Assembly (NCBI GenBank): GCA_913056365.1
Contig: CAJXLT010000001.1
Coordinates: forward strand, 806,001 to 870,000
Reading direction: 5' to 3'
Origin: an uncultured Paenibacillaceae bacterium
Lineage (GTDB): Bacteria; Bacillota; Bacilli; Paenibacillales; K13
DNA length: 64,000 bases
In this document: positions 44,217-63,558 of the stretch, one piece after another
How the letters are laid out: every line of letters begins with the position of its first letter
How positions within the stretch are numbered: position 1 is the stretch's first letter
Program-made: the position numbers and the translations under genes
The notes under the pieces: generated by a model
The model's database searches: none
Seen by the model: the letters and a program-made list of their open reading frames with translations, nothing else
Told to the model about the DNA's origin: nothing

Positions 44217-44232
44217 TTGTAGGAGCATGATT

Positions 44233-44296
44233 GAAAAGACGCCTCCTGTGATGCTGTTGCAATCAGTATCCGTCCTAAGGGAGGCCTCTTTTCATT
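44233..44296. terminator. Terminator after the L,D-transpeptidase gene
   Basis: GAAAAGACGCCTCC pairs with GGGAGGCCTCTTTTC across a loop of about 32 bases. The stem ends in A and T tracts, so it may work in both directions. It marks the left border of the AT-rich island. Confidence 0.65.
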
Positions 44297-44391
44297 TCCC
44301 CTCGCATATTCGTCTTGGTCATTATATCGTTCAATCTTAGGACAGCTTAATGTGAGGTAAAGGTCGTGTTGTGGCACATGAAAACTGAATA

Positions 44392-44428
44392 TTGACAGAT
44401 GAAAGATTTCCGTGTATTTTACTATAAT
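44392..44428 (+). promoter_or_regulatory. Promoter before the secreted repeat protein
   Basis: TTGACA at 44392-44397 is followed 17 bases later by TATTTT at 44415-44420, and a TATAAT lies at 44423-44428. Either could be the -10. The leader of about 170 bases before the start codon shows no known RNA motif. Confidence 0.4.
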
Positions 44429-44602
44429 GTAACATATTCCACCAAGTGTTTCTTCGTATATTGAATACCTCTTCAGATTAATACTCACCATTTGTACTCC
44501 TAAGTGTTCAGACATTCTAAATTCTCATGTAGTTAGCATCATAGTTCCGCATCAAAGTTAAGTGCAGCTTTCGAACAAATTAATTGAAAGGAGAAGTATC
44601 AC

Positions 44603-47600
44603 GTGAATAAATTTTTGAAAATTACAAAAATTATTTCTGTATTTAGTGTACTAATGCTTACGCTGGAATGGGGCGGAGCCGATGTTGGAAGGATTCTTGC
44701 GAACAACGAGGAGACTCTCACGCAGCAACCTGATATTACGACTGCTGAATATTCGGGAGATAATGAATCTAATCTTGGAGTCCTGCATACTTCTCCACAG
44801 AACGGTACAACTAATGTCACTGTTACGAATGCTGTCTATCTTGCTTTCGACCAGCACATTCAGTCTGGTGAAGGATTCGATCAAATCACATTCAAGTCAG
44901 ATGATGAGGACATCCGTTATTCAGCTACCATCACAGAGCATGAATTGCATATCATCCCTGAAGATCAATTGCAGTATGCGAGTACCTACTCCTTGTACAT
45001 ACCCACTAACGCGATTGCAGATTTATCGGGAAATTATTTGTCTGTACCGTTCTTACTTGACTTTACAACAGAAGATTCTCCATTGCATGTAGTTTCTACG
45101 AATCCAACCAATGGCGAGATGGAATTTCCGTTTGATCAGGAGGTAATCATAACTTTTAATAAATCTGTTCATAGTAGTGATAACTTTTCGTTAATGACCT
45201 TTAAGCAAGAGGATAAACTAGTTTCAGCATCATACACCGTACAGGATAATCATCTGATTGTTACTCCGGAATTTGGTTTGTCACCGAATGCGACTTACTC
45301 TATTAATCTTCCAGAGGATGCTGTTCAAGATAATTCCGGTAGCTCCAATTCGAATTTTTCATTTGCCTTTACAACTTCTGACGATACCTATGAACCGAAC
45401 AACAGCGAAGAAACAGCCTATGGGATCACTACTGGAAACCAATATATATCATCCATTTCCGAGCCGTGGGAATCCGATTACTATGTTTTTACGGCTGACG
45501 AAAGTGGGGATGTGACCGTTACAGTAAAGGTTCCTGACAACTGCAATTACGACGTGAGAGTAGAATCCATGGACAAGCAACTTCGCATGACGAGCCATCA
45601 AGGAACAGGGGAAGAGGAAGAACTCACCTTCCGAGTGATTGCAGGGGAGACATACCATATTGCCGTATATGACGCGTATTCCTCCGTACATGATTCGGTC
45701 AAGTATACACTGGACGTCAGTGGGATTACCCCACCTATTAACGATACATTCGAACCTAATGACCGTATCAGCGAAGCATACGAAGTGCAAGCAGGGAATA
45801 TCTATGAATCCGCTATCAGCGCTGTTGGCGATAAGGATTATTATATGTTTACTGCTCCTGAGAGTGGTGCGGTGAAGCTGGATCTCACTCCGGCATCAGG
45901 GGGAAGGTATCAGACGACCTTGATCAATGAGTCGACAGGTCTGTCCTATAAATCTGCAACATCCTATGGAGAAGCAAGTTCCCTGCATTTCTATGCCCAA
46001 GAAGGAGATACTTACACGATTCTAGTAGATGGCAACAATCGCTACACAAGCGAGTATGTGCTGCAAATAGGTAGCGTAGATTCCAATATAGTGGACACGT
46101 ATGAAACTAATGATGGAACGCCATATGAAGTAGAGCCGGGACAAAGCTATTCTTCGTACCTGTCTGTGCCGAACGATAGGGATAACTATACGTTCACCCC
46201 TTCGGTTAGCGGTAATATCGCGGTGGATCTAATCGTCCCAGCAGACAAGAATTACGATCTGTTTATGTCGAGTGTTGCCAAGTCAGACAGAAGTGAATCA
46301 GGTCGAGGAGAGCCAGAGCGCATCGAGATGTCTGTACAGGCGGGAACGTCCTATACGATAGAGGTAAGTGGCGGACCGGTGAGCGAAGAGAGTTATGGAG
46401 AAGAAACCTACCTGTTGCAATTGAGTGAAATCGAGACGGGGTATGCAGACAGTTATGAGCCGAACAACACCCTTGGGCAGGCGTATGTCATTGAACCAGC
46501 TACAGATTACGAAGCATTAATCCCACTGCCTTACGATCAGGATTATTACACCTTCACACCTGAGGAGGAAGGGATAGGCCGAGTAACTTTAATTGTGCCT
46601 GAACAAGTGAATTACGACGTGGGAATTGTTGAAGAGGACTATAGAACAATAGCAAGAGGTACACGAGACCAAGGCGAGAAGGAAGAAGTGTTCTTTAGAT
46701 TCAAAGCCGGAACGAAATATACCATCCAGATACATGGATCAAGTGCTACGGAGGATCATGGTCCAATCCCGTATCAGTTCCGGTTGGAGCTGTCATCGAA
46801 TGTTGATAGATATGAGAATAATGATTTGATAGAAGCAGCAATTCCGATAGAGAGAGGAATACACTATGAGTCTTATCTTGCCGTACAGGGGGATATAGAT
46901 TACTTCAAGTATGAGGCGGAAATGGATGCGGAGCTAACGTTAAGTTATGCCATGCCAGAGGGCAACAATTACCTGATGGAAATCTATAATGCAGCAGGAA
47001 ACCGCGTATGGTGGACCATATCAGAAGACGATATTAAGATTCCTACTGAAATAGGAGAAGTTTACTATATCAAGGTATATGGATTGAGCGAAGACGATCA
47101 TGGAGACGATCCTTATGTATTCAAGCTTGGATATACATTGGATATTCCGCAGAATTTGCACATTTCGAATCATTTTGGTTCATCGGCAACATTGAGTTGG
47201 GACGCACTAGATGATAGTTGGGGAAGCGTTACTTACGATGTGTATAGAGATGATGTGTATCTGTTGTCAACGACGCACACCATGATTGAACTGGACGGGC
47301 TGAATAGTGGGGCAATGACAGCATTTACTCTTAAGGCAGGAAATGCAATCGATTTTGATTCACCTGCAAGTAGCGCTGTTCATGTGTTGGAGTTTGGAGA
47401 TGATCTGACACCACCATCCAAACCTACCATTCAATTAACACCAACTGATGAATGGGCTAACGGCGATGTGGAGGTCGTTGTACAACATGGTGAAGATGCG
47501 TACAGCGGAGTTTTCAAAAGCCAATACAAAATTGGCATAGATGGAACTTGGACAGATTACAATGAACCTCTGGCTATTGGCAACGAGGGAGAGACAAGGA

Positions 47601-49633
47601 TATATGCTCGAACCCTCGATAATGCAGGGAATAGTAGTGAAGAAGCAACCGCCACTGTCAAAATTGATCAAACGGCACCAACCCAACCAATCATTACATT
47701 AAGTGCGAGTGATTGGACGAATGAAGCTGTAACTGTGAGCATCGCTTCTGGGAATGATAGTGGCAGCGGAGTTCAGAACTCCCAGTACAAGCTTGGTGCA
47801 GAAGGGACTTGGATCGACTATACGGAGGCTATTACGATTAGCACAGAAGGAGAGACAGAGGTCTTCGCCCGCACTTTGGACTACGTTGGGAATGTAAGTG
47901 AAGCTGTAACCGCCACAGTGAGAATCGACCAGACCACTCCTACGCAACCAACGATATCATTAAGCACAAGTGAGTGGACGAACGAGGGAGTAGTAGTGAT
48001 AGTTTCGTCCGGCACTGATAGCGGCAGCGGCGTGTTGAAAACCGAGTACAAGCATGGTGAAGAAGGAACTTGGACGACCTATACTGATTCATTCCCGATA
48101 GGTACTGAGGGTGAATCCATAGTCTATGCAAGGACAATAGATATTGCAGGAAATGCGAGCGAAGAATCCACCGCGGTAGCTAAAGTAGATCGCACTGCGC
48201 CAACGGAATCCATAATTACTTTGAGTGCGAATGATTGGACGAACGAAGCTGTAACAGTAAGCATCGCTTCTGGGACTGATAGTGGCAGTGGAGTTCAGAA
48301 CTCCCAGTATAAGCTTGGTGCAGGAGGGACTTGGACCGACTATACGGAGGCTATTACGATTAGCACACAAGGAGAGACAGAGGTCTTCGCCCGCACTTTG
48401 GACTATGTTGGGAATGTAAGTGAAGAAGCAACCGCCACATTGAGAATTGATCAGACTGCTCCAACGCAGCCAACGATAGCGTTGAGTACAAGTGAGTGGA
48501 CAAGCGAGGAAGTGATAGTTTCCATCGCAGCGGGAGAAGACATTGGCAGCGGTACGCTTGTAGCCCAATACAAGCTTGGCGTAGAAGGGCCATGGTCGGA
48601 CTACATTGCTCCATTCTCGATTAGCACTGACGGTGAATCCATAGTTTACGCAAGGGCGGTGGATATTGCAGGAAATATCAGCGGAGAAGCCACCGCGTTA
48701 GCTAAAGTAGATCGCACTGCGCCAACGAAACCAGTCATTACTTTAAGTTCAGATGATTGGACGAATGAAGCAGTAACAGTAAACATCGCTTCTGGAACAG
48801 ACAGTGGCAGCGGCGTACTGACATCCCAATACAAGCTTGGCGCAGAAGGGGCATGGACGACCTATACTGAGGCTATCTCGATTAACACAGAAGGCGAGAC
48901 TGTGGTTTTCGCACGCACAATTGACATCGTTGGGAATCTGAGTGAAGAAGCAACAGTCACAGTGAGAATCGACCAGACCGCTCCAACACAGCCAACGATA
49001 GCATTAAGTACAAGCGAGTGGACGAGCGAAGACGTTATTGTGACGATCACACCAGGCCAAGATAGTGGAAGTGGTGTATGGAAATCGCAGTACAAGCTTG
49101 GGGAAGGTGGAGAATGGACGAACTACATTGCACCGTTTACGATAAACGAAGAAGGCGAGGCAATGATCTATGCTCGAACCCTTGATCATACCGGTAAAGT
49201 GAGTAACGAAACGTCTGCTTTAGTCAAAATTGATCGCACACTTCCATCCGTGCCTATCGACGTCACACTAGTTCAAATTTCCGAAGACAATCTTCGTATG
49301 AAATGGAAGCACGCGACGGATAACGTTGGCTTACTCGGGTACAGAGTATATAACGGAACAACGTTACTTGGTTTGGTTGAAGAGACCGAGGTGAATTTAA
49401 CTGGTATAGTGGGCGCATCCTCTTATCAGTTTTCAGTTAAAGCTGTTGATGAGGCGGGTAACGAATCAGCTCCAAGCAATAGGGTGCGATTTACTACCTA
49501 CCGACAACCAATCTATTATTACGACCCTCAGGGTTCAGGACAGCTTCAGCGCGTTGAGTACGAAGATGGCACCATTGTGCGATTCGAATATGATCCTAAT
49601 GGTAATTTAATAAGGACATATTATGAGGATTAA
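44603..49633 (+). CDS. Giant secreted Ig-like/PPC/FN3 repeat protein with a C-terminal YD motif
   Basis: A 1676-residue exported protein; GTG start after GAAAGGAG. A signal peptide covers about the first 33 residues. Then come two SbsA-type Ig-like domains (about 58-152 and 156-252), five PPC-type domains each opening with a (D)xYExND-like motif (starting near 260, 380, 496, 615 and 733), an FN3 domain (about 847-935), seven tandem Ig-like repeats of about 86 residues (937-1546), a second FN3 (1548-1632) and a short YD segment (VEYEDGTIVRFEYDPNGNL). Repeats alternate between two subtypes. There is no catalytic domain. It is probably a surface or matrix protein that works with the RHS toxin 47 bases downstream; this link is inferred. 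Confidence 0.88.
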   Translation: MNKFLKITKIISVFSVLMLTLEWGGADVGRILANNEETLTQQPDITTAEYSGDNESNLGVLHTSPQNGTTNVTVTNAVYLAFDQHIQSGEGFDQITFKSDDEDIRYSATITEHELHIIPEDQLQYASTYSLYIPTNAIADLSGNYLSVPFLLDFTTEDSPLHVVSTNPTNGEMEFPFDQEVIITFNKSVHSSDNFSLMTFKQEDKLVSASYTVQDNHLIVTPEFGLSPNATYSINLPEDAVQDNSGSSNSNFSFAFTTSDDTYEPNNSEETAYGITTGNQYISSISEPWESDYYVFTADESGDVTVTVKVPDNCNYDVRVESMDKQLRMTSHQGTGEEEELTFRVIAGETYHIAVYDAYSSVHDSVKYTLDVSGITPPINDTFEPNDRISEAYEVQAGNIYESAISAVGDKDYYMFTAPESGAVKLDLTPASGGRYQTTLINESTGLSYKSATSYGEASSLHFYAQEGDTYTILVDGNNRYTSEYVLQIGSVDSNIVDTYETNDGTPYEVEPGQSYSSYLSVPNDRDNYTFTPSVSGNIAVDLIVPADKNYDLFMSSVAKSDRSESGRGEPERIEMSVQAGTSYTIEVSGGPVSEESYGEETYLLQLSEIETGYADSYEPNNTLGQAYVIEPATDYEALIPLPYDQDYYTFTPEEEGIGRVTLIVPEQVNYDVGIVEEDYRTIARGTRDQGEKEEVFFRFKAGTKYTIQIHGSSATEDHGPIPYQFRLELSSNVDRYENNDLIEAAIPIERGIHYESYLAVQGDIDYFKYEAEMDAELTLSYAMPEGNNYLMEIYNAAGNRVWWTISEDDIKIPTEIGEVYYIKVYGLSEDDHGDDPYVFKLGYTLDIPQNLHISNHFGSSATLSWDALDDSWGSVTYDVYRDDVYLLSTTHTMIELDGLNSGAMTAFTLKAGNAIDFDSPASSAVHVLEFGDDLTPPSKPTIQLTPTDEWANGDVEVVVQHGEDAYSGVFKSQYKIGIDGTWTDYNEPLAIGNEGETRIYARTLDNAGNSSEEATATVKIDQTAPTQPIITLSASDWTNEAVTVSIASGNDSGSGVQNSQYKLGAEGTWIDYTEAITISTEGETEVFARTLDYVGNVSEAVTATVRIDQTTPTQPTISLSTSEWTNEGVVVIVSSGTDSGSGVLKTEYKHGEEGTWTTYTDSFPIGTEGESIVYARTIDIAGNASEESTAVAKVDRTAPTESIITLSANDWTNEAVTVSIASGTDSGSGVQNSQYKLGAGGTWTDYTEAITISTQGETEVFARTLDYVGNVSEEATATLRIDQTAPTQPTIALSTSEWTSEEVIVSIAAGEDIGSGTLVAQYKLGVEGPWSDYIAPFSISTDGESIVYARAVDIAGNISGEATALAKVDRTAPTKPVITLSSDDWTNEAVTVNIASGTDSGSGVLTSQYKLGAEGAWTTYTEAISINTEGETVVFARTIDIVGNLSEEATVTVRIDQTAPTQPTIALSTSEWTSEDVIVTITPGQDSGSGVWKSQYKLGEGGEWTNYIAPFTINEEGEAMIYARTLDHTGKVSNETSALVKIDRTLPSVPIDVTLVQISEDNLRMKWKHATDNVGLLGYRVYNGTTLLGLVEETEVNLTGIVGASSYQFSVKAVDEAGNESAPSNRVRFTTYRQPIYYYDPQGSGQLQRVEYEDGTIVRFEYDPNGNLIRTYYED
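47413..49240 (+). repeat. Seven tandem ~258-base coding repeats
   Basis: Inside the giant secreted protein, seven units of about 258 bases (86 residues) follow one another. Units 2, 4 and 6 (opening ITLSAxDWTNEAVTV) are more like each other than like units 3, 5 and 7 (opening TIALSTSEWTSEEVIV). This points to duplication of a two-unit block of about 516 bases. Repeated DNA of this kind invites copy-number change and assembly errors. Confidence 0.9.
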
Positions 49634-49679
49634 TATAACAGACTCACTTTACATGTAATGAGAGGAGAAAATAAGAGTT

Positions 49680-52600
49680 ATGAAAAAATTAGCTGCGAGT
49701 CTCTTAACTTTCGTTATCATACTGGTTGGAACATTACCTTCTTCTACTTTGGCTTCCGAAGGAGAGGCAATGTTAATAGGGAACAAGAACGAGGTAACTG
49801 AACAGCCTCTGGATATAGTGGACTTGTATACAACCCCAGAACTAGAAAGCCTTCATCGAGGATCGGAAATACTTACACTTGATTGGATGGCATCCAATTT
49901 CCATGTGCCTAAGGAATTATTGCGTGAGCAATTGAATAAGGGGTACCCGCTTACAGCACTGTATAAAGCATTACAGAAACATGGAATAAGTGCGGATCAA
50001 CTGCAGGCAGAGCTGGCAATGCTTCATCCTGAAGTAGAGAGTCAACGCGAGGAGTTGGAATCTTCCTTGCTATTGGAGCAGCAGCATGCCACTGAAGATA
50101 ATTCAAGAGAAGGAATAGAGCGAATAGAATATAAAAATAAGAATGAACATGAGAAAAAGAAGTTGGAAGCAGACAAGCTGATTGCGGAAGATACGCATGG
50201 GCAAATTGAGCTATTCCTGGAATCTCCAAACACTTCAGAGCTAGCGAGGTCAAGTTTTTCAACCACGTCTACGGATGAACCTCAGTTGCCTAATCTTGCT
50301 GAAAACTATGATCAAGGTGCTGCTAATCGAATGCATATGACAGCCAATCATGCACCCTTCTCTATCTCGAACGGCAGTGAGCAAATATCGAATCTGAGTG
50401 GTGATCTGAGTACAAGAGTAACAGATATGACCTTGCCGGGCAGGAACGGATTATCATTCTCGTTGAATCGTGTATACAATAGTGCGGATGCAAAGTATTT
50501 CGAGAATCATGCCAAGTATAGGGAATATCAATTGAAGTGGTTTTACCCTGTTGTGAGGTTGATTATAGAGAGGGTGGATGAAAACGGTATACACCACTCA
50601 TCTGGACTGCAGCCAGTAATATTTGGACTGGAGAAGGAATATGTCGATTTTGAGGGTATCACCTGGGAATTCAATGCCCCTTCTATTCCAGTATATGAGT
50701 ATGCGGATGAACACAGGCTTTATGAAGTTGCACAAGAACAAATGCAAGAAAAGGCTGATTCTAATGAACTAGTCTTCCAAGATTACAGGGAAGCCTTTGG
50801 AGTGAAATTATATTATTATATGTACCCAACAGGACAGGTTTTGGAGGTGCCTTATGAGCATCAGACCGTAAAATCGGGATATGAAAACAAGGCGAATCAA
50901 TCGTTCTCAGAAGAGAAAAGATTCCCCTTAGGAAAAGGGTGGTCTTGGGAAATCCCCTATATCAAAACGCAGGATGGTAAGAAATATCTCTCACTTGCCG
51001 GGGTAGGTACTTATGAAATTTCATCGGGCAATCAGTTGGTTGGCTATCCATGGGAAGACCTCACTTTATCTAACGACGCTACGGTCACTGTGAATGGAAA
51101 GAGTTCCAGTTATGTATTGCGTTCCATTCAGGGGATTAGCCACTACTTCTCAACTAATGGAAAACTCATTCGTAAAGCAGATGCCTATGGCAATACGATT
51201 GATTTCCATTATGCGAATGTGTCACCGTATGGAGAGGTATTAACGAAGGTGACAGATGCTTTGCAGAATGAGATTTCCATCACATACAGCATAGAAGAAG
51301 TGAAGATCACTTCTGGTGATCGCGAAGTGACGTATCATAAATCCATGGCACCGCTAGACAAGGAATTCCTAAGTGCAGTGACCGATGTCGAGGGCCGGGA
51401 TACCGTCTATCAATACAGGTTGGAACAAAATAATTTTAATTTACTCGGGTCTGATTATGATAATGGCGATAATTATGTCTTGCTCTTGACTAAAGTCTAC
51501 CATCCGACCGGAGCTCGCAGCGTTTATACGTATTCTTCATACAGACAACGGATTGGAGAAGAAGCCACGGATACGAAATGGTACGTCACTGAAAGAGAGG
51601 ACGTTGTCGATTATACGGACGGCAATCAGGAAAAGGGGAATCGGATAACCTTCACGCATTCGGGGTTCCCTGAATCAACCTATGGTACTGATACTACATT
51701 CTCAACAACGGCGAACAATGGTCTGACTTCAGTGACTTATCAATATAAGAAAGATCACATTGACGAAGAGACTCCAGCTGTGTTCTATACTACTCGTATT
51801 ACAGAAACAGGTGGAGGGACCACTCGCACAACAACGCAAGAATATGATGAGGTACGACGGCTGCCTATCCCTATCCAATCCACTACACAATATGAAAGTG
51901 GCAGCTCGCAGTCTCAGGAGATTACATCCAGCGCTACTTACGATGATTATGGTAATATATTGACATCGACTGATCCGCTAAGAACGATCGACTACACATA
52001 TGATACGACTACGCACCTGTTGAAGTCCGTACGTGAACCTGTGAACGCGAATCAATCAAGATTCACTGTCTATGACAGGAATGCGCAAGGAGATATCAGT
52101 CGTATGGCTGTATACGAGAACGCTGCTTCAGGGACCTTAATGCAAGAAGTGAGCTTCGGCAGAGACGCACATGGCAATGTGACACAAGTGACTATCCAAG
52201 ACGATGCGAGAGATTCAGTAATGAACTATGAATATAACACCCAGCAGTATAATGGGGGGTTCCCTACCAAACAAACCGTCAGCGTAACACAAGCCGATGG
52301 AACTTCCCATACAATCACACAAACCATGGAATATAACAAGTTGACTGGACAAGTGACGAAGTTCACAGACGGGAATGGGAACCCTACTAGTATCAAGTAC
52401 GACAAACTAGGAAGAGTCACGGAGCAGACTTTGCCGGATCAGAGCAATCTGAGCGTGGCGTATGATGACATCGCAAATTCAGTTACCGTGACGGATATGA
52501 CCAATCAGGTGACCGAATCGTATTACAATCCTTTTGGCTGGTTAAGATATGAAACAATGGGACTGGGCTATGCATCTTATGGCTATGATACTCATGGAAG

Positions 52601-55457
52601 ACGGACATGGAGCGAAGATGCGAAACGAAATCGTACGCAGTATCAGTATGATAATTGGGGCCGCATTGTTCGCATGACGCATGCCGACGGTAGCTATACC
52701 CAAACACAGTATGATGATACTGGCTTTAGCACAACGAGTGTGGATGAGGACGGGAAGAGACTACGCGAAATATATGACCTGATGGGCAGAGTCATCCGAA
52801 CGGAGGAGGTATCCTCTACAGGTACTAAGATTCTATCCAGTCAGCATTATGATTTAGCAGGGAATCTCACCAGTACAACAGACGCAGCTGGGAATACGAC
52901 CACATACACCTATGATGTGGTTGGAAGGTTGATTGCAGTTACGGATGCAGAGGGAAATACAACCCGTTACCACTATAGTAAGATCAATGATTTGCGTGAA
53001 ATTGTATATCCGGATAACCGTTCACGGACTATGCAGCATGATGAGTTGGGGCGGCAGATCAAACTAGTGACACCGCAAGGATTGGTAGAACAATATGTGT
53101 ATGATGGGAACGGAAATCTCACGCAATATGTCGATCAGAAGAATCAAATAACAGATTATAATTACAATTCGCGGAATTTTCTTATCAGCAGTCATACGAA
53201 TGAAGATACAGTAAATTATACGTATGATGCCGGGGGAGAGCGTTTATCCATGACAGATTCAACCGGTGATACGCTGTATGATTATTATGAATCAACGAGC
53301 CGACTAGCATCTATCACATATCCTGATGGCACTATGATAACATTTAACTATGATGTACAGAATATGACAGATCGATATATTCTTGAGGATTCACGTGTTA
53401 CCTATCAATATGATAATCGGAATCGACTCAATGATATTGTCATACAGGGTCATGATCGATTGGAAGGGGATACCTGGTATATACGAGATTTAGGGCGGCT
53501 ACAAATGTCCTATAATCAGGATAGCACTTTTGATGATTGGATTTATAACGAGGGGACGATAAATAAACAGTATGTGTATGATGGATTTAACCTGTCCTCA
53601 CTCTCGTATACAAGATCAGATCAAACTGAGATTGCCTCGTTTGCCTACGGGTATGACAGTAATCGAAATATCAGCTATCGAGATGAGAATGGCGAATCCG
53701 GTCACTTCACCTATGATGAATTGAATCGGATTAAAACCTCTAGTCCTTTTAACGAAACGTACGACTATGATGTTCGCGGGAACAGAATGAAATTGCAAAG
53801 TGACTTAGCGCCGACCATACAACCTAAATCGTATGTGTATGACTCCAGAGATCGACTCATACAGGTGACGATGGAAGATGGCAATGTTATTGAATATCGA
53901 TATAATGGTGATGGGCTGTTATATGAGAGATCCGATTCCAGTGAGACAAAGCGGTACTATTATGACGAGCAAGGAAGATTGTTCCGAGAAGGAATTGTAC
54001 AAAGCAACGGGGAAGTAGAATTAACAGCTAGGTATATTTACGGAGAGCAAGGTATTGGCTTGATAGCCCGACATGATGCCCCAACAGACTCTGTCCAATA
54101 TTATATTCGTAACGGTCATGGTGATGTGACAGGGGTCGTAGATTGGGAAGGGGACCCGATCAATGAATATTCGTATGACATCTGGGGAAATCCACTGAGT
54201 ACGGTCGAACATTTAGAAAATCCGTTCCGTTATTCTGGTGAGTATTGGGACGAGACAACAGGATTGCAGTATTTGAGAGCCCGCTGGTATGATCCATCCT
54301 TGGGGCGATTTATTAATGAAGATAGCTATGAGGGGGATATTGCTAATCCGCTGACGCTCAATCTTTATACCTATGTGCATAACAATCCGTTGATCTTCAT
54401 TGACCCATCAGGACATGCTGCGGCTTGTACTTCCGAGAGTTCGTGCATTGCTTATTATAAGAGCTTGAATCCAATCACTGGGGCAGATGGCTTGGATCAT
54501 TTAATGAATCAGCATGCCCTTGAACAAATCTTATGGAATACCGAGTTAATGAGTGGCAGTGACTTGGCATACAGGGATTATCTAAATTCCGAGAACAACC
54601 GAATCCGAAATAATGCTTGTTCCTACTTTGACTGTAGTGCAGGCACTGCGTCGTTTAGTGGTGAGGAAAATGGCTATCAGAAGATTACATTCGCTACCAC
54701 AGACGGTGAAGCAGAATATCTTTTAACGAGTGCTGGAATGATCGTATGCAATTGTTTTACAGCGGGAACAGTCGTACAAACCGATGAAGGGGAAAAATCT
54801 ATAGAAGACATTCAATTGGGCGATCGGGTACTGGCTAAAAATGATGAAACGGGCGAAATGTCCTACCAGAAAGTAGACATGCTTTTTGAAAGGCATGTCA
54901 GTGAAACTTATAACATCACTGTGAGTGATGAGGTGATTACGACAACCGCCGAACATCCATTTTGGATTGCCGGAAAAGGTTGGGTGAAAGCCAAAGAACT
55001 GCAAATAGGAGATACACTTGTAACATCAGATAGTAGCCTACTGCCAATTGAAGACATTGTGGTTAAACAGGAGCAAACCACCGTATACAATTTCCGAGTT
55101 GAGAACTTCCATACGTATTTTGTTTCGAACTTAGGCATATGGACTCATAACGAAGATTTTTGCGGACTGTCCAGAAACGAAGCCTATCGAAAAGCAAAAA
55201 GAGATGCGGGAATCCCAATGTCTACACAACCAGTCAAGATTGGTCATGTCTGGGATACTGAAAGAAGAAATGTCTTCGAATTTGATGTGAATGGCACTAA
55301 GAAATATGTTGTCCAGCACCTATGGAGCAATCAAGGGCAGGATGCCCATTTCCACGTCGCTGAGCCAAACAAAGCCGGGCAAACCCCATGGGTAAAAGGC
55401 GCAAGATACATTGTGCCAGCAAATGTGATGAGGCACTACTACTACAATAGCAAGTAG
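49680..55457 (+). CDS. RHS-repeat polymorphic toxin with Hint domain and C-terminal toxin
   Basis: A 1925-residue exported protein. A signal peptide covers about 1-27. An N-terminal region with a charged helical stretch (about 125-165) leads into the RHS entry domain and many YD repeats (about 220-1500). The RHS core-associated region, YSGEYWDETTGLQYLRARWY and DPSLGRFINEDSY, ends with DPSGH near 1577. A linker follows, then a Hint domain that starts with Cys near 1690-1692 (CNCFTAGTVV), has TTAEHPFW, and ends in THNED near His1823-Asn1824. The last about 100 residues are the toxin. The RHS shell encloses the toxin, and Hint should release it by self-cleavage. The toxin class is not assigned. 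It sits in an AT-rich island with its immunity gene downstream. Confidence 0.93.
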   Translation: MKKLAASLLTFVIILVGTLPSSTLASEGEAMLIGNKNEVTEQPLDIVDLYTTPELESLHRGSEILTLDWMASNFHVPKELLREQLNKGYPLTALYKALQKHGISADQLQAELAMLHPEVESQREELESSLLLEQQHATEDNSREGIERIEYKNKNEHEKKKLEADKLIAEDTHGQIELFLESPNTSELARSSFSTTSTDEPQLPNLAENYDQGAANRMHMTANHAPFSISNGSEQISNLSGDLSTRVTDMTLPGRNGLSFSLNRVYNSADAKYFENHAKYREYQLKWFYPVVRLIIERVDENGIHHSSGLQPVIFGLEKEYVDFEGITWEFNAPSIPVYEYADEHRLYEVAQEQMQEKADSNELVFQDYREAFGVKLYYYMYPTGQVLEVPYEHQTVKSGYENKANQSFSEEKRFPLGKGWSWEIPYIKTQDGKKYLSLAGVGTYEISSGNQLVGYPWEDLTLSNDATVTVNGKSSSYVLRSIQGISHYFSTNGKLIRKADAYGNTIDFHYANVSPYGEVLTKVTDALQNEISITYSIEEVKITSGDREVTYHKSMAPLDKEFLSAVTDVEGRDTVYQYRLEQNNFNLLGSDYDNGDNYVLLLTKVYHPTGARSVYTYSSYRQRIGEEATDTKWYVTEREDVVDYTDGNQEKGNRITFTHSGFPESTYGTDTTFSTTANNGLTSVTYQYKKDHIDEETPAVFYTTRITETGGGTTRTTTQEYDEVRRLPIPIQSTTQYESGSSQSQEITSSATYDDYGNILTSTDPLRTIDYTYDTTTHLLKSVREPVNANQSRFTVYDRNAQGDISRMAVYENAASGTLMQEVSFGRDAHGNVTQVTIQDDARDSVMNYEYNTQQYNGGFPTKQTVSVTQADGTSHTITQTMEYNKLTGQVTKFTDGNGNPTSIKYDKLGRVTEQTLPDQSNLSVAYDDIANSVTVTDMTNQVTESYYNPFGWLRYETMGLGYASYGYDTHGRRTWSEDAKRNRTQYQYDNWGRIVRMTHADGSYTQTQYDDTGFSTTSVDEDGKRLREIYDLMGRVIRTEEVSSTGTKILSSQHYDLAGNLTSTTDAAGNTTTYTYDVVGRLIAVTDAEGNTTRYHYSKINDLREIVYPDNRSRTMQHDELGRQIKLVTPQGLVEQYVYDGNGNLTQYVDQKNQITDYNYNSRNFLISSHTNEDTVNYTYDAGGERLSMTDSTGDTLYDYYESTSRLASITYPDGTMITFNYDVQNMTDRYILEDSRVTYQYDNRNRLNDIVIQGHDRLEGDTWYIRDLGRLQMSYNQDSTFDDWIYNEGTINKQYVYDGFNLSSLSYTRSDQTEIASFAYGYDSNRNISYRDENGESGHFTYDELNRIKTSSPFNETYDYDVRGNRMKLQSDLAPTIQPKSYVYDSRDRLIQVTMEDGNVIEYRYNGDGLLYERSDSSETKRYYYDEQGRLFREGIVQSNGEVELTARYIYGEQGIGLIARHDAPTDSVQYYIRNGHGDVTGVVDWEGDPINEYSYDIWGNPLSTVEHLENPFRYSGEYWDETTGLQYLRARWYDPSLGRFINEDSYEGDIANPLTLNLYTYVHNNPLIFIDPSGHAAACTSESSCIAYYKSLNPITGADGLDHLMNQHALEQILWNTELMSGSDLAYRDYLNSENNRIRNNACSYFDCSAGTASFSGEENGYQKITFATTDGEAEYLLTSAGMIVCNCFTAGTVVQTDEGEKSIEDIQLGDRVLAKNDETGEMSYQKVDMLFERHVSETYNITVSDEVITTTAEHPFWIAGKGWVKAKELQIGDTLVTSDSSLLPIEDIVVKQEQTTVYNFRVENFHTYFVSNLGIWTHNEDFCGLSRNEAYRKAKRDAGIPMSTQPVKIGHVWDTERRNVFEFDVNGTKKYVVQHLWSNQGQDAHFHVAEPNKAGQTPWVKGARYIVPANVMRHYYYNSK

Positions 55458-55466
55458 GTGTTCAAA

Positions 55467-55934
55467 GTGGAAACAAGAAGCAGATTAGAGGAATTGAAAC
55501 AAAAGACCAAAGTGAAAAACACACGCCAAGAACTGATTCATAAATTCAACCAGATTGGCCTATCCATATCTCTCAGTTCGTTTCTGGATGTTCACTACAG
55601 CCAAGAACTGGCGGGTAGAATTTATCACAAACTGGACGAGATCGAGAGTTCTGAACAAATACCGGGTTTCGAGATGGTGTTTCAAAAACTACTAGAGATG
55701 CAGAGTTTGTATAGCAATAAGAATGAAAGCATAGTGGCTCTATATCCTTATGAAAGTATGAATGCAGGTGCTATCAGCCTAAAGCTTTCGGAATTTTGGG
55801 ATCACCTAGAAAAGATATTGGAGATCATCTACTTCAACACAGGTAACAATCATCTTTTAATTGTTGACCAGGCATTGGAATTCGGCATTTGTGCTATTGC
55901 TTACGAGGATTACTTTACAATAACAAACTGGTAG
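55467..55934 (+). CDS. Candidate immunity protein for the RHS toxin
   Basis: A 155-residue soluble protein without signal peptide, starting METRSRLEELKQ at GTG 55467; a GTG at 55458 in the same frame is closer to the toxin stop. It follows the toxin gene by about ten bases, the place where immunity genes of polymorphic toxins lie. It is mainly helical with an acidic surface pattern (YPYESMNAGAISLKLSEFWD). I do not recognise its family. The immunity role is inferred from position and size. A hairpin follows its stop. Confidence 0.75.
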   Translation: METRSRLEELKQKTKVKNTRQELIHKFNQIGLSISLSSFLDVHYSQELAGRIYHKLDEIESSEQIPGFEMVFQKLLEMQSLYSNKNESIVALYPYESMNAGAISLKLSEFWDHLEKILEIIYFNTGNNHLLIVDQALEFGICAIAYEDYFTITNW

Positions 55935-55941
55935 TACAGAG

Positions 55942-55980
55942 TACCCACAATACGCTTCAATTCCGTATTGTGGGTATCTT
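55942..55980 (+). terminator. Hairpin terminator after the first immunity gene
   Basis: TACCCACAATACG pairs perfectly with CGTATTGTGGGTA (13 bases) around a 9-base loop, followed by TCTTTATAT. The T-run is imperfect. Confidence 0.6.
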
Positions 55981-56104
55981 TATATCCTTTCCTTCCCAGC
56001 ACAACCCCAGAAGCCCGTCCCCCCCCCCTTTTTTTTCTTCTCTGGTCTACTCAAGATGCTTTCTTTCTTAGGTCAATCCCACTCCACACTTCGCGGGGCA
56101 AGTA
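55981..56104. other. Spacer with a C-run followed by a T-run
   Basis: A run of about ten C residues and about eight T residues lies at about 56019-56037. It is in non-coding sequence. No gene is supported here. Confidence 0.6.
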
Positions 56105-56430
56105 CCCCCTAATGATCTAACTGTGCGCCTTCTGCAAGGACAGGGATCATTCTTAAGTTTTTTGACATTGTAAGCCGCTGCGCTTCGCGACCATGCGAAC
56201 CAATGCAATAAAAACTTGACACCTCGCGGGCAACCTTCCGAAATGACCCAAACTCATGCCTACGGCGAGTACACGGATCATTCTGATGATTTGGGTGTGG
56301 AAAGCGGCTCCGCTTTGCGACCGAGCGACCTCACGCCCTTTGATCTGCTTAGATGTCCAACCAACTTACCTTGATTCGTGCCACCGGCAGGCCATGAATT
56401 AGAACTTCCTCCTCCCCTATTTTGAACCCC
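56105..56430. repeat. Non-coding element, copy A, behind the first immunity gene
   Basis: This copy shares long stretches with copy B at 58241-58659. Matches include CCTCGCGGGCAAC, AAACTCATGCC, ACGGATCATT, GAAAGCGGCTCCGCTTTGCG and GAGCGAC, in the same order. It contains a short hairpin (AAAGCGG / CCGCTTT). Two half-units inside the element also resemble each other. No reading frame is conserved between copies, so it is likely an RNA gene, a recombination site or a small mobile element. Confidence 0.75.
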
Positions 56431-56886
56431 TGTGAGTATGCCTAAGAAGTCATATTCCGTCTAATAAATAAACGCATTTACCACAAGTTGACGTCCTGCT
56501 AGAGCGGCTCGTTGTCTTCAAGTTTCTACTCACTGGGGAAAACATACGCTATCGAACAACCAAATGAGTCGGTAATAGATAATACATTTATTCACGAATA
56601 ATCCTTTGCTTTTTCGAATCATAGGCAAAGCAAGTTTTGAACTGTCCCTCCAATTCTTCAAGGGTCTACTTATAGAGGGCTTTATAATCAGAGATATCCA
56701 GCAATCGTTTATGGGTTTTCAAATATCGATTTTATTTGAGGTATTTCCCTAACCATAATGATATAATTATCTAGTGTGTGTCTTGTTAAAATATGAAATT
56801 AAAACATTTCATTCTTTGGTTCCTAAATACTGTATAAATCCTTTTGAGTAATAATATTTTTTAGGTGAGATAGTTATGAAGGTGAG
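56431..56886. other. Non-coding AT-rich stretch
   Basis: About 450 AT-rich bases between repeat copy A and the decayed RHS tip. No open frame with a ribosome site, RNA motif or repeat that I can support is seen. Confidence 0.5.
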
Positions 56887-57544
56887 ATGGAAAACCCACT
56901 ATCTTTGATCCTTTACACGTACGTTTATAACAACTCATTAATTTATGCCGACCCTACAGGTCATTGGTGTACTTCTGCTGACGGCATGTGGTCGCATCCG
57001 GGCGGCTGTAAGGCGGTGCAGGGGGTAGAGAGGTATTTGGGGATGTAGGTACTTCCTGATACATTGACGACAGCATTAGTATTAACTTCGGTAGAAATAT
57101 CATTGAGAACCAACAGGGATTTCGGATGCTCTCATTGGATGTACTTATGACAGCCAGTGTGCAGGCTTTGTAACTGGGGGAGTTACTAGCGCAGCCAATG
57201 GAGTCAAAGAAGGGGTTCAGGCTATTGGTATAGGCACTGCTCGGGTTTGGAATTGGAACAAAGAAATTGCGAGCGGCAAGTCGAAGCCTAATCCAGGTAT
57301 AGAATTCAATCCGTATGGTTTAAGGGTATAAACAGGAGTCGATCCCAATACACTTGTTCCAGCTAAAGACCTCAAGAATTTAACGAATATTCCTGGCGGG
57401 GCACAGAGAGTAACCAATGCCGCAAAGCATGGCGCTGATAAGCAAATTATTGTGGATAGAAACGGAAAAATCCTCGATGGCCATCATAGAGTATACGATG
57501 CGATCAGGAAAGGGCGAACCGTGGATATACAAATTGGATATTAA
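56887..57544 (+). pseudogene. Decayed RHS tip with a ParB-fold-like toxin end
   Basis: Translation starts with NPLSLILYTYVYNNSLIYAD and then PTGHW, which matches the RHS core end of the intact gene (NPLTLNLYTYVHNNPLIFID, then PSGH). After that the frame breaks: stops near 57046 and 57057, then a shift near 57123 into a frame reading DALIGCTYDSQCAGFVTGGV, a TAA near 57329, and finally a clean 71-codon end with VPAKDLKNLTNIPGGAQRV and DGHHRVYDAIRKGR. That end looks like a ParB/sulfiredoxin-fold nuclease toxin with its GHHR motif. It has no RHS shell or signal peptide, so it is a displaced toxin tip. The candidate immunity gene follows after about 15 bases. Confidence 0.85.
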
Positions 57545-57559
57545 TAATGGGTGGTTGCG

Positions 57560-58108
57560 ATGGAGAATAAAACACTTTCAAGTCTATTAAATGACTTGCA
57601 TAAAATCATTGTATTTGCACGTTATCTGGTCAGTAGCAACTATGAGAAGGATGCGGTAATCGAGATTCTACAAACCATCGAAGGAACACTAACTGGCGTT
57701 TCTAACAGGCAGGAGTATGAACGCGCCGCATTTATCGAACGGATTCTTGAAGAGGTTAGCGGTGATCAATCGGTAATGGAGCTCTTTTCCGACTCATTGC
57801 GAGATCCAGAATACAGCGAGATCACGGATAATGAATCAGAGATCATGAAATATCTTCCCGTTATAAATGAAGTGACGAAGGAAGCAAGAATGAATTACAA
57901 TAAGGGCAATGCCGAAAAATCGCATGATTTGCTTGATTGCATCCACAACCTTCCGGTGTTATTGCTTAACAAGAAACACTGGAAATCCAAAGTGTTTTGG
58001 AGAACGAGCATGAAGCATTACAGGGAGAAATGGCAGGATGACGATTTTTTGGTTCAAGAGGAACAGAGATTAGCTCCACAACCATTGTTCAAGAGATGGA
58101 TGAGCTAA
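57560..58108 (+). CDS. Candidate immunity protein of the displaced toxin tip
   Basis: A 182-residue helical, acidic, soluble protein starting MENKTLSSLLNDLHKIIVFA. ATG 57560 has GGGTGG at a suitable distance; GTG 57551 is an alternative. It is intact although the toxin before it is broken, which is common for orphan immunity genes. Position behind a ParB-like toxin end suggests it neutralises that toxin. I do not recognise the family. Confidence 0.75.
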   Translation: MENKTLSSLLNDLHKIIVFARYLVSSNYEKDAVIEILQTIEGTLTGVSNRQEYERAAFIERILEEVSGDQSVMELFSDSLRDPEYSEITDNESEIMKYLPVINEVTKEARMNYNKGNAEKSHDLLDCIHNLPVLLLNKKHWKSKVFWRTSMKHYREKWQDDDFLVQEEQRLAPQPLFKRWMS

Positions 58109-58125
58109 GACTAAGACGAAACGTC

Positions 58126-58163
58126 GCCACAAGCGAGCGTATGCTCCTTGTGGCTTTCTTTTG
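58126..58163 (+). terminator. Terminator after the second immunity gene
   Basis: GCCACAAG pairs with CTTGTGGC around a 13-base loop and is followed by TTTCTTTTGTT. Confidence 0.7.
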
Positions 58164-58240
58164 TTGCCGAACGCTGGACGGGAAATCTATCGCATAATAG
58201 CCGGTCTATTCATGCGCTTCTCGATATGAAGCGCTAATAC

Positions 58241-58659
58241 CTCCCGAATGATTGGTTTTATGCCTATGGCGAGGATACAGATCATTCGTAAGCTTTTGGC
58301 GTTGTAAGCCGCTGCGCTGCGCGATCGAGCGTACCAACGCCATGATACTGCCGCAGGCGGATAAGCCAATAACGCTGCCGTATTTGTCCGGCATCTTGCA
58401 TGTTTGACGCCTCGCGGGCAACCCTTCCAATGATCCAAACTCATGCCAAAGGCAAGAACACGGATCATTATGATGATCTTTGTTCTGGAAAGCGGCTCCG
58501 CTTTGCGACAGAGCGACTCCACGCCCTAAATCTTTACCGCCGTAGCTTGTCCGGCAGTCACTTGTTCTGGGTCTTGCTTCGCTGAACAACCAACAAACCT
58601 TACTTTCCGTGCCACAGGCACGCCCATGAATTTGAATTTCCCCCGCTTTGAATTCATCC
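58241..58659. repeat. Non-coding element, copy B, behind the second immunity gene
   Basis: This is the longer copy of the element also found at 56105-56430. It keeps the shared blocks in order (CCTCGCGGGCAAC, CATGCC, CGGATCATTATGATGAT, GAAAGCGGCTCCGCTTTGCG) and has a more complete first half-unit (ACAGATCATTCGTAAGC, then GTAAGCCGCTGCGC). It also has about 90 extra bases around 58330-58400. A long minus-strand open frame covers it but is not shared with copy A. Confidence 0.75.
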
Positions 58660-58686
58660 AAAAGTTGACAATTTCTACAAGAACAC

Positions 58687-58715
58687 TTGTGCGTATTCCT
58701 TTTAATTGTTAGAAT
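58687..58715 (+). promoter_or_regulatory. Promoter of the small peptide gene
   Basis: TTGTGC at 58687-58692 and TAGAAT at 58710-58715 are separated by 17 bases. The start codon is about 40 bases downstream. Confidence 0.45.
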
Positions 58716-58757
58716 ATATTTGTAATTCACTTTTTGCTAATAAGGGAGGTGAAATCT

Positions 58758-58907
58758 ATGGCAGTAAAACATATTCCAACTGATATTGTTCATAGTGGAA
58801 CTACAGGCGGAACAACTGGTTGTGGAACTAATACCAATGAACATTCTGATCATTGGGTAAATACTAGTTCTAGCATTACTTGCAATAAAAATGGTTGTAA
58901 AAATTAA
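58758..58907 (+). CDS. 49-residue Thr/Ser/Cys-rich peptide, possible RiPP or secreted effector precursor
   Basis: This short gene starts MAVKHIPTDIVHSGTTGG and ends SITCNKNGCKN. The AGGGAGGTGA ribosome site is very strong and well spaced. A promoter lies before it and a near-perfect terminator after it, so it is a single-gene transcript. The peptide has three Cys (residues 22, 42, 47) and many Thr/Ser in its second half, and a Gly-Gly near residue 17-18 that could be a leader cut site. This is the look of a lanthipeptide-like precursor. No modification enzyme or exporter is next to it, so the class is uncertain. Confidence 0.72.
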   Translation: MAVKHIPTDIVHSGTTGGTTGCGTNTNEHSDHWVNTSSSITCNKNGCKN

Positions 58908-58913
58908 TAATTC

Positions 58914-58962
58914 AAAACAAATAACCGTTCATCTATTAATTTAGAACGGTTATTTGTTTTAA
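58914..58962. terminator. Strong terminator after the small peptide gene
   Basis: AAAACAAATAACCGTTC pairs perfectly with GAACGGTTATTTGTTTT (17 bases) around a 13-base loop. The stem starts with A residues and ends with T residues. Confidence 0.85.
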
Positions 58963-59167
58963 ATAAATGTGTCCCCACTTTATAAACATCAATCCAGAGT
59001 AACTCATGAATTTTCTCAGAGTGATTTTTGGAGAAGAGAGATAATGAATTGAACTACATAACCCGGTGCCAAATTGAAGAATAACAAGGGGCATTATCCT
59101 TGAATTTTGATCGAGTCATCATCTTTTTTTCGTCTTGCTTTTAAGAAGGCTAAATGAGGAGGTTAAT

Positions 59168-60157
59168 TTGAATTTGATGAAGTCAATAGTTCAATTTGAA
59201 ATTTGTCAGAAAAGCCAAAATACTATTTCCGTAAACAATATTAATTACTATACGGATGTTTTCAGGTTACTACTCAATAGGAAAGTATTTCTGCTTGAAG
59301 ATTTATTAGCATTAGACCGACTGTCTGAATATGAAGAATCGTTTCATGAAATTTTACCGGGCATAGATCTCAGGATCATATGTGATAATAAAGTGAAAAA
59401 GTGGTATAAAATTCTTAAGAACTTAAATGCGTCAATTTCTCTTGAATTACGTGTAAGGAACAAAAGGGATCGGATTTCCATTCGATATGACGATATGTAT
59501 ATCAAGTTTGAATTTTCGAATTCTGAACACGAAAGAGAACGTTCTTTTGAAGGAACCAGCCCCACAAGAGCATCATATGTGAATGTTCAACAAATAAAAA
59601 AGTACCCCTCTCTTTTAACCGGGGACGCACGAAAATGTGCTGTATGGAGATGGTTTGGAAGCCATAAATTGATTGATGTTTGGGCGGACTACTCACCATT
59701 TACTGTCCGTGAAATGCTCACATTAACATCGGAACGTCAAGAGTTTTTGGAATTGTGTCGAAAATCCGAACACTGTGGATCATTATTAAGGAAATTTGAA
59801 ACCAATACCTATAAAGAAGATGTACCCGATTACGATCAAATACAGTTGGCCAATTGCAATGGAGAGCTCGAAGCAGAAGAAGGTAAGCATCGGACATGCA
59901 TTGTTAAAAGATTTAAGATACCAAAGGTGTATGCCTTGGTATATGATGTAATAGAAAAAGAGACAGGCAGAGTCGAAGATCCATTTACATTTGCGTCAAG
60001 GACAAATAAGCAAGCTGCACATGTGTTGCAGGAATACTACGAAAGCTTTTACCGTATAGGATTGAATAAGGAACAAATAACTTATGCTGTTGAAAATGGA
60101 CTTAGAGGAGCAGAACTATTCGACCATATCAATAAATGCCAAAAGTTCGAGGTGTGA
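59168..60157 (+). CDS. Unknown protein with a ParB-like GKHR motif
   Basis: A 329-residue soluble protein. The start is uncertain: GAGGAGGT precedes TTG 59168, TTG 59174 and ATG 59177. Residues about 225-255 read LANCNGELEAEEGKHRTCIV, then KRFKIPKVYALV, which resembles the ParB/sulfiredoxin-fold pattern with a GxHR motif that binds or hydrolyses nucleotides. The rest is unassigned, with a mixed helical and beta pattern and no membrane segment. It overlaps or abuts the FRG gene, so the two probably act together. The sequence is clearly AT-richer than the core genes. Confidence 0.7.
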   Translation: MNLMKSIVQFEICQKSQNTISVNNINYYTDVFRLLLNRKVFLLEDLLALDRLSEYEESFHEILPGIDLRIICDNKVKKWYKILKNLNASISLELRVRNKRDRISIRYDDMYIKFEFSNSEHERERSFEGTSPTRASYVNVQQIKKYPSLLTGDARKCAVWRWFGSHKLIDVWADYSPFTVREMLTLTSERQEFLELCRKSEHCGSLLRKFETNTYKEDVPDYDQIQLANCNGELEAEEGKHRTCIVKRFKIPKVYALVYDVIEKETGRVEDPFTFASRTNKQAAHVLQEYYESFYRIGLNKEQITYAVENGLRGAELFDHINKCQKFEV

Positions 60158-60162
60158 AAAAG

Positions 60163-61251
60163 TTGAAAAAAGAGCAGTTAGAAGCGAATATGCAAGTCAC
60201 TTCCTTGGCGGAATTTATATCAGCTATTTCCTTATACCCGTCAGATCGTTTTCTTTTTCGTGGTGAAAATGCTTATTATGCAGAACGAGTATCCGCTTCA
60301 TTCAGACCTTTTGATGGAAGCTGGCACAGTAAAAAGGACCACCCGTTTATTGAATTGTCAAAACGATTTTATGATGAAGTGGCACACAGGATTAGCGAGT
60401 TCGAACGAGCCCATTTCATTGCTTTTTCACAGCATCATGGAATTCCAACAAACTTATTGGATATTACATCATCGCCTTTAATAGCGTTATACTTTGCGTG
60501 TTTGGAAAATGAGAAAGGGGATAGAAACCAAAGAGATCAATACGGCTATGTCTACATCTTTGATGATGACTACGTGGATATTACTTCTATATTGGAAAAA
60601 TACCCGAATGAAAATGTGCTCGATTTACTGACGAGTGATAACTCAGAAATTCTGTCGATATGGACAAAATTGTTCGAGCAGTACCGTTCCAGACACTTAG
60701 CATCGTTCAATGCTTGTTTTGACCTATTAGTGGATAGTCTAAAACACTACTTTCAGCTTGATGAAGATGTATTGCTTGCATTGGACGACTGCGAAGATAC
60801 TTTTGGTTACGACCAGAAATACCTTAATATTATCTCTGCTTTCAACGGAAACCATGAACATATTATGCCTATTAATCTGTATGATGGAAATGCGGAAAGT
60901 TTTGCGTTCATGTGCTTACTCAGAACGTTTTTTATGAAGGCAAAAAACTATCAAGAACCAATTCATGGGGTGACTTTTTTGCCCAATTTGTATTATAAAC
61001 CCTTGCTAGTTTTTGAACGTGGGAGGAATCAGCACAGTAGTTTTATGTATCAGGCTTATCTATCATACACAGAACAAGTATATAATTATTATGTTCTAAT
61101 GAAACAACGAATTCACCATAAGATATGCATTCGTATTGAGAACAAGGATAAGATTTTAAGGGATTTAGACAATATTGGAATCAACCGAAAAACGATATTT
61201 AGTGATTTTGATAATATTGCCAACTATATATGCCTGCAATATAACCAGTAA
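60163..61251 (+). CDS. FRG domain-containing protein
   Basis: A 362-residue soluble protein. The FRG signature appears as RFLFRGENAYYAERVSASFR near residue 28, and the strongly conserved second half FSQHHGIPTNLLDITSSPLI near 90-110 is followed by ALYFA. The C-terminal 200 residues are unassigned. TTG 60163 has GAGGTG eight bases upstream; ATG 60136 and GTG 60154 in the same frame would overlap the previous gene. FRG proteins are widespread in phages and genomic islands, and their biochemical role is poorly known. Tight linkage with the preceding gene suggests a two-gene system. Confidence 0.82.
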   Translation: MKKEQLEANMQVTSLAEFISAISLYPSDRFLFRGENAYYAERVSASFRPFDGSWHSKKDHPFIELSKRFYDEVAHRISEFERAHFIAFSQHHGIPTNLLDITSSPLIALYFACLENEKGDRNQRDQYGYVYIFDDDYVDITSILEKYPNENVLDLLTSDNSEILSIWTKLFEQYRSRHLASFNACFDLLVDSLKHYFQLDEDVLLALDDCEDTFGYDQKYLNIISAFNGNHEHIMPINLYDGNAESFAFMCLLRTFFMKAKNYQEPIHGVTFLPNLYYKPLLVFERGRNQHSSFMYQAYLSYTEQVYNYYVLMKQRIHHKICIRIENKDKILRDLDNIGINRKTIFSDFDNIANYICLQYNQ

Positions 61252-61447
61252 CCGCTATTAGAAACTTGGTTTTTGTTCGCTATTACAGGCTATATATCAA
61301 TAATCTGGACTAAAGTTGTTTTACATGGCTAAGAGCCATATTCAGAAATTGATGATGAAATCCTTTGATCTGAAAAGAATATGAAATCTCTTTTTATTGA
61401 ATTTGGGATAGAATAACAAATATCCTTTTTACGATTAAAATGTGTGA
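61252..61447. other. Non-coding AT-rich spacer
   Basis: About 200 AT-rich bases after the FRG gene. No terminator with a good T-run, gene or repeat could be supported. Confidence 0.5.
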
Positions 61448-61706
61448 CCTTTAGATTCCGCTTCGAGATCACTCAATACTGGCAAGAGCGCTACGTACGA
61501 TGTACTTGGTAGGCTTGTATCTGTGAGATCCGCTTGACAAGCGGACATCATACAAGTATAGCTTGGCTAACCAATTAACGGGAATTAAATATCCAGATCA
61601 GAACAAATTGATGAAGGAGTATGATCAGATAGGCCAATTAATTCGCAGGGTTGACCCATCTGGTGCTGTAGATACGTACACATACAATATGAAGCGTAGA
61701 GAATGA
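61448..61706 (+). pseudogene. Fragment of RHS/YD repeats at the right end of the island
   Basis: The translation reads TGKSATYDVLGRLVSVRSA then a stop, and after a frame change YSLANQLTGIKYPDQNKLMK, EYDQIGQLIRRVDPSGAVDT and YTYN, ending at a TGA near 61704. These are RHS YD repeats like those of the intact gene at 49680-55457. There is no start or ribosome site. It is a leftover of a second RHS gene and marks the border with the core genes. Confidence 0.85.
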
Positions 61707-61734
61707 TAAGCAAGACAGCTAGGAGAGAATCGAG

Positions 61735-62616
61735 ATGAATGTACAGAAGTTTTGCCAGCATCCGGCAGGAATGCTCGTGACAGCGATGGTTGCAACGTTG
61801 TTATGGGGGAGTGCCTTTCCTGTCATTAAGCTTAGTTATTCAGCCTTGGCGATTGCACCGGATGAGATCTATGAGCAGATCGTATTTGCCGGTTACCGCT
61901 TCCTATTGGCTGGTGTCATGATCTATATGATGATGATCGTTACTGGACGAAGTCTTAGGCTGAAATCAGGAACAATCGGAACCGTTATCCTCATCGGATT
62001 CGTCCTGACATTCCTGCAATACATAGCGTTCTATATCGGTCTGAGCCGAAGCTTCGGCTTCATGGGAGCCATCATTAGCGGGATGATTTCGTTGTTCCAG
62101 CTATTGTTGGCTCAGTTCTGGTTTCGCAACGACCGGCTGAACTGGCGCAGCGGAATCGGACTGCTGCTTGGATTCAGCGGATTGTTCGTATTGTTCGCAG
62201 ATCGACAGAGCGGGATTTCATTCGGATGGGGAGAAGCGTTGCTAATCGGGTCTGCACTGTTCTGCGCGATTGGCAACCTTCTGTCTAAGTCTGCGGCAAA
62301 GCAGCTGACAGTGTTCGCCATGAACAGTCATCAGATGGTAATCGGACTGTTCCCGCTTGACTTCCAATGGAAGTCACTGTTGTATCTAGTGCTGCTCGCG
62401 TTCGTATCCGCTGCCTCGTTCATCCTGTGGCACACCTTGATGAAGTATAATGATGTCGGTCGCGTATCTATGTTCCTCTTCATGATTCCGTTGTTCGGCA
62501 GCGGCTGGTCCGCATTATTGTTGGATGAAGTGCTGCATGCTTCTGCCCTGGCAGCGCTTGTGCTGATCAGCTTCGGCATTATTCTCGCACATCGCAAGCG
62601 CAGTGCTGCTTCATAG
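61735..62616 (+). CDS. EamA/DMT family transporter
   Basis: A 293-residue membrane protein with about ten hydrophobic helices in two repeats, as in drug/metabolite transporters of the EamA type. The opening MVATLLWGSAFPVIKLSYS is the usual first helix, and ILWHTLMKYNDVGRVSMFLF is the matching second-half motif. The substrate is unknown. AGGAGAGAA precedes the ATG. Base composition returns to that of the core. Confidence 0.92.
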   Translation: MNVQKFCQHPAGMLVTAMVATLLWGSAFPVIKLSYSALAIAPDEIYEQIVFAGYRFLLAGVMIYMMMIVTGRSLRLKSGTIGTVILIGFVLTFLQYIAFYIGLSRSFGFMGAIISGMISLFQLLLAQFWFRNDRLNWRSGIGLLLGFSGLFVLFADRQSGISFGWGEALLIGSALFCAIGNLLSKSAAKQLTVFAMNSHQMVIGLFPLDFQWKSLLYLVLLAFVSAASFILWHTLMKYNDVGRVSMFLFMIPLFGSGWSALLLDEVLHASALAALVLISFGIILAHRKRSAAS

Positions 62617-62721
62617 GCAAGATAAGTTCAAGAGAACGGTTAAACTTAGTCGTGCTTGGGTTGTGTGCACAATGATACAGCACATATTATGATCGAGCGT
62701 CGCGGCAGCAGGCCAGCTTGA

Positions 62722-62928: not shown

Positions 62929-63107
62929 TCATCCTTTCGTTATGGCGGAATTTATAATTGCTGGTTCTATTGTAGCTTGTCCGCACAGGTTGGACAAGTT
63001 CAGCTCATGCGGACAGCCGAACATAAGCGCTTCGGTCGTTATTCGTTGACTTGACTACTCAGGTATAATGGAGGGAACACAACCTTGATCGCTTGGGAGG
63101 GATCGGT

Positions 63108-63503: not shown

Positions 63504-63558
63504 GCAGGCCCCCTGTGTGTGAATAGAGTAGCTAGTGAGTATGCGAACACGGTTGGGC

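Follow-up and report, generated by a model that had tools for sequence, protein, structure and literature searches.

Overlapping genes at the edge of an RHS island

The window analyzed here, a 64,000-nt stretch of DNA from an uncultured Paenibacillaceae bacterium, carries near its 3' end two genes on the same strand that a first-pass annotation had described as an abutting pair encoding a ParB-like-motif protein and an FRG-domain protein. Both reading frames were located; rather than abutting, they overlap by 22 nt, an arrangement that suggests translational coupling. Both genes are real, since homologs of each keep conserved positions across hundreds of residues, and the ATG assigned to gene 2 matches the N termini of its relatives in the alignment. 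The main features of the locus are the following.

44205..61713, no strand: island of ∼17.5 kb that includes an RHS locus and the gene pair, replaced by other sequence at this site in the congener G001
49680-55457, + strand: RHS gene upstream of the pair, 1925-aa product
59156..59162, + strand: Shine-Dalgarno sequence GAGGAGG of gene 1, identified from the sequence, 5 nt ahead of the TTG at 59168
59168..60157, + strand: gene 1 (ParB-like protein), 329 aa, TTG start at 59168
60136..60157, + strand: overlap of the gene 1 and gene 2 frames, 22 nt
60136..61251, + strand: gene 2 (FRG protein), 371 aa, ATG start at 60136
61560..61706, + strand: remnant of RHS YD repeats shortly 3' of the pair, translation SLANQLTGIKYPDQNKLMKEYDQIGQLIRRVDPSGAVDTYTYNMKRRE*

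The location in a toxin island and the AT-rich composition, both pointed out previously, were borne out. The pair region contains 36 to 39% G+C versus 50 to 55% over the greater part of the window's first 43 kb. The window flanks at 35219-44204 and 61714-63890 align to a single contig of the congener G001, and the segment between 44.2 and 61.7 kb does not, which places the pair at the 3' edge of a ∼17.5-kb island. At the corresponding site, G001 carries ∼3.4 kb of other genes instead of the island; its RHS homolog is on a different contig, and no match to gene 1 or gene 2 was found in this genome. In the 1925-aa RHS protein of the island, an intein-like (HINT) segment is present, and the C-terminal domain is short. 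Directly behind the RHS gene is a gene of the YxiF family (PF24715, 5.1e-19), and the two, which span 49680-55934 (+ strand), likely represent a toxin-immunity arrangement. No RNA families were found near the gene pair, and a promoter scan detected fewer sites than in shuffled sequences.

The ParB-like protein

The family of gene 1 is rare and has no library model. The following motif was located in the protein.

59876..59914, + strand: ParB-like GxHR motif EEGKHRTCIVKRF, gene 1 residues 237-249

Searches of gene 1 against Pfam, NCBIfam, PADLOC, and PHROGs retrieved nothing above chance, and none of the seven family members matched Pfam, including ParB_N (PF02195). The earlier interpretation of the motif as ParB-like was corroborated by profile comparison: the top PDB match of the family profile is ParB (E = 0.014), and the hhalign score of the family against ParB is 29.6, compared with a maximum of 20.0 over 60 column shuffles, 13.8 for the reversed alignment, and 14.5 to 16.5 for other families. 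From the combination of the PDB match and a score above the shuffled controls, a ParB-like core in gene 1 is probable. The profile aligns to the N-terminal (CTPase) domain of ParB (PF02195) over the GxHR/GERR block and the following strand, and the alignment continues weakly into the helix-turn-helix region; gene 1 differs from ParB in that GKHR replaces GERR. Within the motif, H241, R242, C244, K247, and R248 are invariant in seven relatives. The structure model of gene 1, built from two sequences, reached a pLDDT of 36, too low for a fold call.

A similar short acidic-G-x-[HQ]-R motif occurs in DndB/DGQHR (PF14072) proteins and in GmrS DUF262 proteins of the ParB/Srx fold; the DGQHR and DGQQR motifs of DndB/GmrS-type proteins have been described (PMC4619093). 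A closest relationship of gene 1 to DndB was considered and rejected, with a profile score of 16.9, at the level of the controls, and no DndB, GmrS, or DpdB matches to gene 1 were obtained in PADLOC or Pfam. ParB/Srx proteins of conflict systems have been proposed to function as NTPases or nucleases (PMC4619093, PMC10853773).

The family consists of seven members, namely, gene 1, its relative in Paenibacillus sp. MZ04-78.2, and five distant ones, with carriers in 3 of the 392 genomes of the order sample and 5 of the 398 of the phylum sample (the genus and family samples comprised two genomes only). No relatives were found in viral contigs, phages, or plasmids, and within-class searches around two of the distant matches yielded no further members. 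The Paenibacillus sp. MZ04-78.2 protein is the closest relative (62 to 63% identity), and its gene comes immediately after a type I restriction locus. Where the ParB-like gene follows such a locus, two genes of 554 and 351 aa come next (L002:7099-9825); they gave no PADLOC or significant Pfam match and are possibly uncharacterized island genes.

The FRG protein and its relatives

The assignment of gene 2 to the FRG proteins in the first-pass annotation is well founded: the match to PF08867 scores 59.2 bits (E = 7.8e-16; curated cutoff, 25). Gene 2 also matches many PADLOC models of PDC-S15 (best E = 9.8e-33) and aligns over residues 11-369, that is, its whole length, to phrog_24967 (1.5e-86), an unnamed phage family. 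With no important difference from the PF08867, PDC-S15, and PHROG 24967 families, gene 2 is, by these profile matches, a further member of the known defense candidate PDC-S15, which has been termed uncharacterized (PMC12482510). Three segments can be delineated.

60247..60522, + strand: FRG Pfam segment, with R42-G43 and QHHGIPTNLLDITSSPLIALYF, residues 38-129
60598..60960, + strand: helical insert inside the ART-like unit, ∼residues 155-275, approximate limits from the secondary structure of the model
61012..61236, + strand: conserved C-terminal FRG block, residues 293-367, FERGRNQ..F.YQ ... ILRDLDNIGIN...IF.D.DNIANYI

Conservation was assessed in two alignments of eight sequences each, in both of which the FRG motifs RG, QHHGxPTxxxD, and RxxxQxxxF are all present in gene 2. 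The residues invariant in both alignments are R42, G43, Q99-G102, P104, T105, and D109, and, in the C-terminal block, R295, Q299, F303, Q306, G348, and D359. Because the block RxxNQxxxFxxQ ... GIN...D.DN.A.YI is conserved together with FRG, the end of the protein previously called long and unassigned belongs to the FRG unit and consists of the helical insert and this block. In the fold search, helical PDB matches to the gene 2 model were restricted to residues ∼160-275.

Structure prediction, suggested as a follow-up in the first-pass annotation, gave a moderate-confidence model of gene 2 from eight sequences (mean pLDDT, 66; pTM, 0.67), the best fold matches of which are almost all ARTs (Z ∼5). 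Foldseek alone detected no match to this model with E below 0.1; after re-ranking with VIA-align, the top ten matches were all ART enzymes or toxins with Z scores of 4.6 to 5.2. The ARTs at the top of the list, at Z of ∼4 to 5, include the TreTu/TreX Rhs toxins, Arr, and classical ART toxins, and a Z of ∼5 is under the level at which the tool is usually trusted and is weak by itself. A direct search of PDB sequences with gene 1 or gene 2 gave only chance-level matches, and the FRG profile had no match in PDB. An ART fold of gene 2 is likely because a single family dominates the top fold matches and because a published classification (PMC9503650) counts Frg among the members of the ART superfamily and regards it as a potential NADase with an antiviral role, a proposal that partly answers the earlier statement that FRG proteins are without a settled role. 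The predicted domain differs from the ARTs in being split by the helical insert and in having no clear catalytic glutamate, with the invariant Q299 found in the C-terminal block. Judging from the first aligned residues, and provided that the first strand contains no gap, R42 would correspond to the Arg/His with which several ARTs bind NAD.

Relatives of gene 2 were found in 31 of the 392 genomes of the order-level sample, and the neighborhoods of FRG genes were inspected in seven Paenibacillales loci of 13 to 16 kb, 10 viral contigs, and other loci. Most FRG relatives are found near known defense genes or in prophages. For example, GajA (1.6e-253) and GajB (2.5e-170) of Gabija lie directly upstream of FRG in two orthologous loci, and on a Cetobacterium plasmid, hsdR-hsdM-hsdS are followed by FRG. 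Other FRG relatives are located beside ABC-3C HNH and DUF2326 genes and, on viral contigs, beside SIR2-like and TIR genes; a TOTE primase-helicase and an HSDR_N protein are further neighbors. In lactococcal phages, including TP901-1, the FRG gene is placed after the endolysin. The TP901-1 gene is annotated in two parts, ORF54 and ORF55 (L015:4130-5191), and the related contig L065 contains a single intact FRG frame of 394 aa. A second Paenibacillales FRG gene (L050:1607-14545) is located between RHS genes, with a recombinase and IS-like genes nearby. Apart from the endolysin common to two lactococcal phages, no neighbor family recurs across independent FRG loci, which therefore fits a stand-alone cargo gene. 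The proposed role in phage defense thus stays plausible for the FRG protein, given its neighborhoods and the PDC-S15 match, and is not supported for the two genes as a paired unit. The presence of this FRG subfamily beside defense systems in Paenibacillales, on a fusobacterial plasmid, and in prophages makes the PDC-S15 candidate worthy of an assay.

Probable independence of the two genes

An FRG gene adjoins a member of the gene 1 family in one of the seven genomes, the present one only, and the adjacency is absent at all six of the other ParB-like loci. Any FRG gene at all was detected in two of the seven genomes, that of Paenibacillus MZ04-78.2 being on another contig; none was found in the five other genomes. 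From the side of FRG, no ParB-like gene was observed in the seven Paenibacillales neighborhoods (13 to 16 kb), the 10 viral contigs, or the other loci examined. The first-pass annotation had put forward a single phage-defense or toxin-antitoxin unit and had named the lack of conserved pairing in other genomes as evidence that would speak against it; no conserved pairing was found, and with no second adjacent pair, a conserved two-gene system is unsupported. In the literature searched, no description of a combination of a ParB-like protein with an FRG-type ART was found. What was supposed to be a new pair thus becomes two separate questions, one on an FRG defense candidate and the other on a rare ParB-like family.

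We consider it fairly probable that the two island genes are mobile independently of each other and came together in a single operon in this lineage, the FRG protein being a stand-alone ART effector and gene 1 a separate entity; as neighbors they look like the product of chance during assembly of the island. Under this explanation, phage infection would trigger the FRG protein, which would then consume NAD+ or modify a target and so stop the cell, that is, cause abortive infection; gene 2 is probably an NAD-consuming effector of this kind. The ParB-like core of gene 1 would bind nucleotides, and the protein would probably be an NTP-binding nuclease or a regulator acting alone. Several observations sit less easily with independence: the 22-nt overlap is typical of operons and would suit functional coupling, and the gene 1 family is rare, so that pairing was judged on six other loci, few enough to leave room for a pairing specific to this lineage. 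The ART part of the explanation, in turn, has to accommodate a pLDDT of 66, a Z of ∼5, and the lack of an obvious equivalent of the catalytic glutamate.

The bracketing of the pair by an RHS gene and an RHS remnant, together with the position of the FRG relative at L050 between RHS genes, would be expected if both genes were orphan cargo, toxin or immunity genes left behind by RHS tip exchange and unrelated to phage defense. However, most FRG relatives are outside RHS loci, beside defense genes or in prophages, and no RHS gene was recognized near the relatives of gene 1, so that this origin seems unlikely. It is distinctly unlikely that the two genes are a recently assembled defense system with coupled translation, the ParB-like protein acting as a sensor of phage nucleotides or DNA, or as an enzyme that cleaves them, and the FRG ART shutting the cell down: the 22-nt overlap on the same strand, the occurrence of both families near restriction genes, and the presence of ParB/Srx proteins and ARTs in conflict systems (PMC9503650, PMC10853773) are all compatible with such a system, but no second example of the pair exists at the loci searched. 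A more specific version is quite improbable, namely, that the pair forms an immune unit of two components peculiar to this lineage, the ParB-like nucleotide-binding protein controlling or feeding the FRG-type ART effector via coupled translation. Least of all do we expect a toxin-antitoxin pair of an FRG ART toxin and a ParB-like antitoxin or regulator: the genes overlap, and ART-fold toxins, such as RES and DarT, do occur in toxin-antitoxin pairs, but FRG relatives have neither a ParB-like partner nor any common neighbor, and in five of the six other ParB-like genomes, which show no FRG gene, a dedicated antitoxin would therefore have no target.

Upstream of the pair, an additional ORF of 49 aa (MAVKHIPTDIVHSGTTGGTTGCGTNTNEHSDHWVNTSSSITCNKNGCKN; 58758-58907, + strand) was noticed; its ribosome-binding site is strong, and an inverted repeat lies past its stop codon. 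Its product had no Pfam match, is rich in Cys, Ser, and Thr, and in this composition resembles a lanthipeptide-type precursor.
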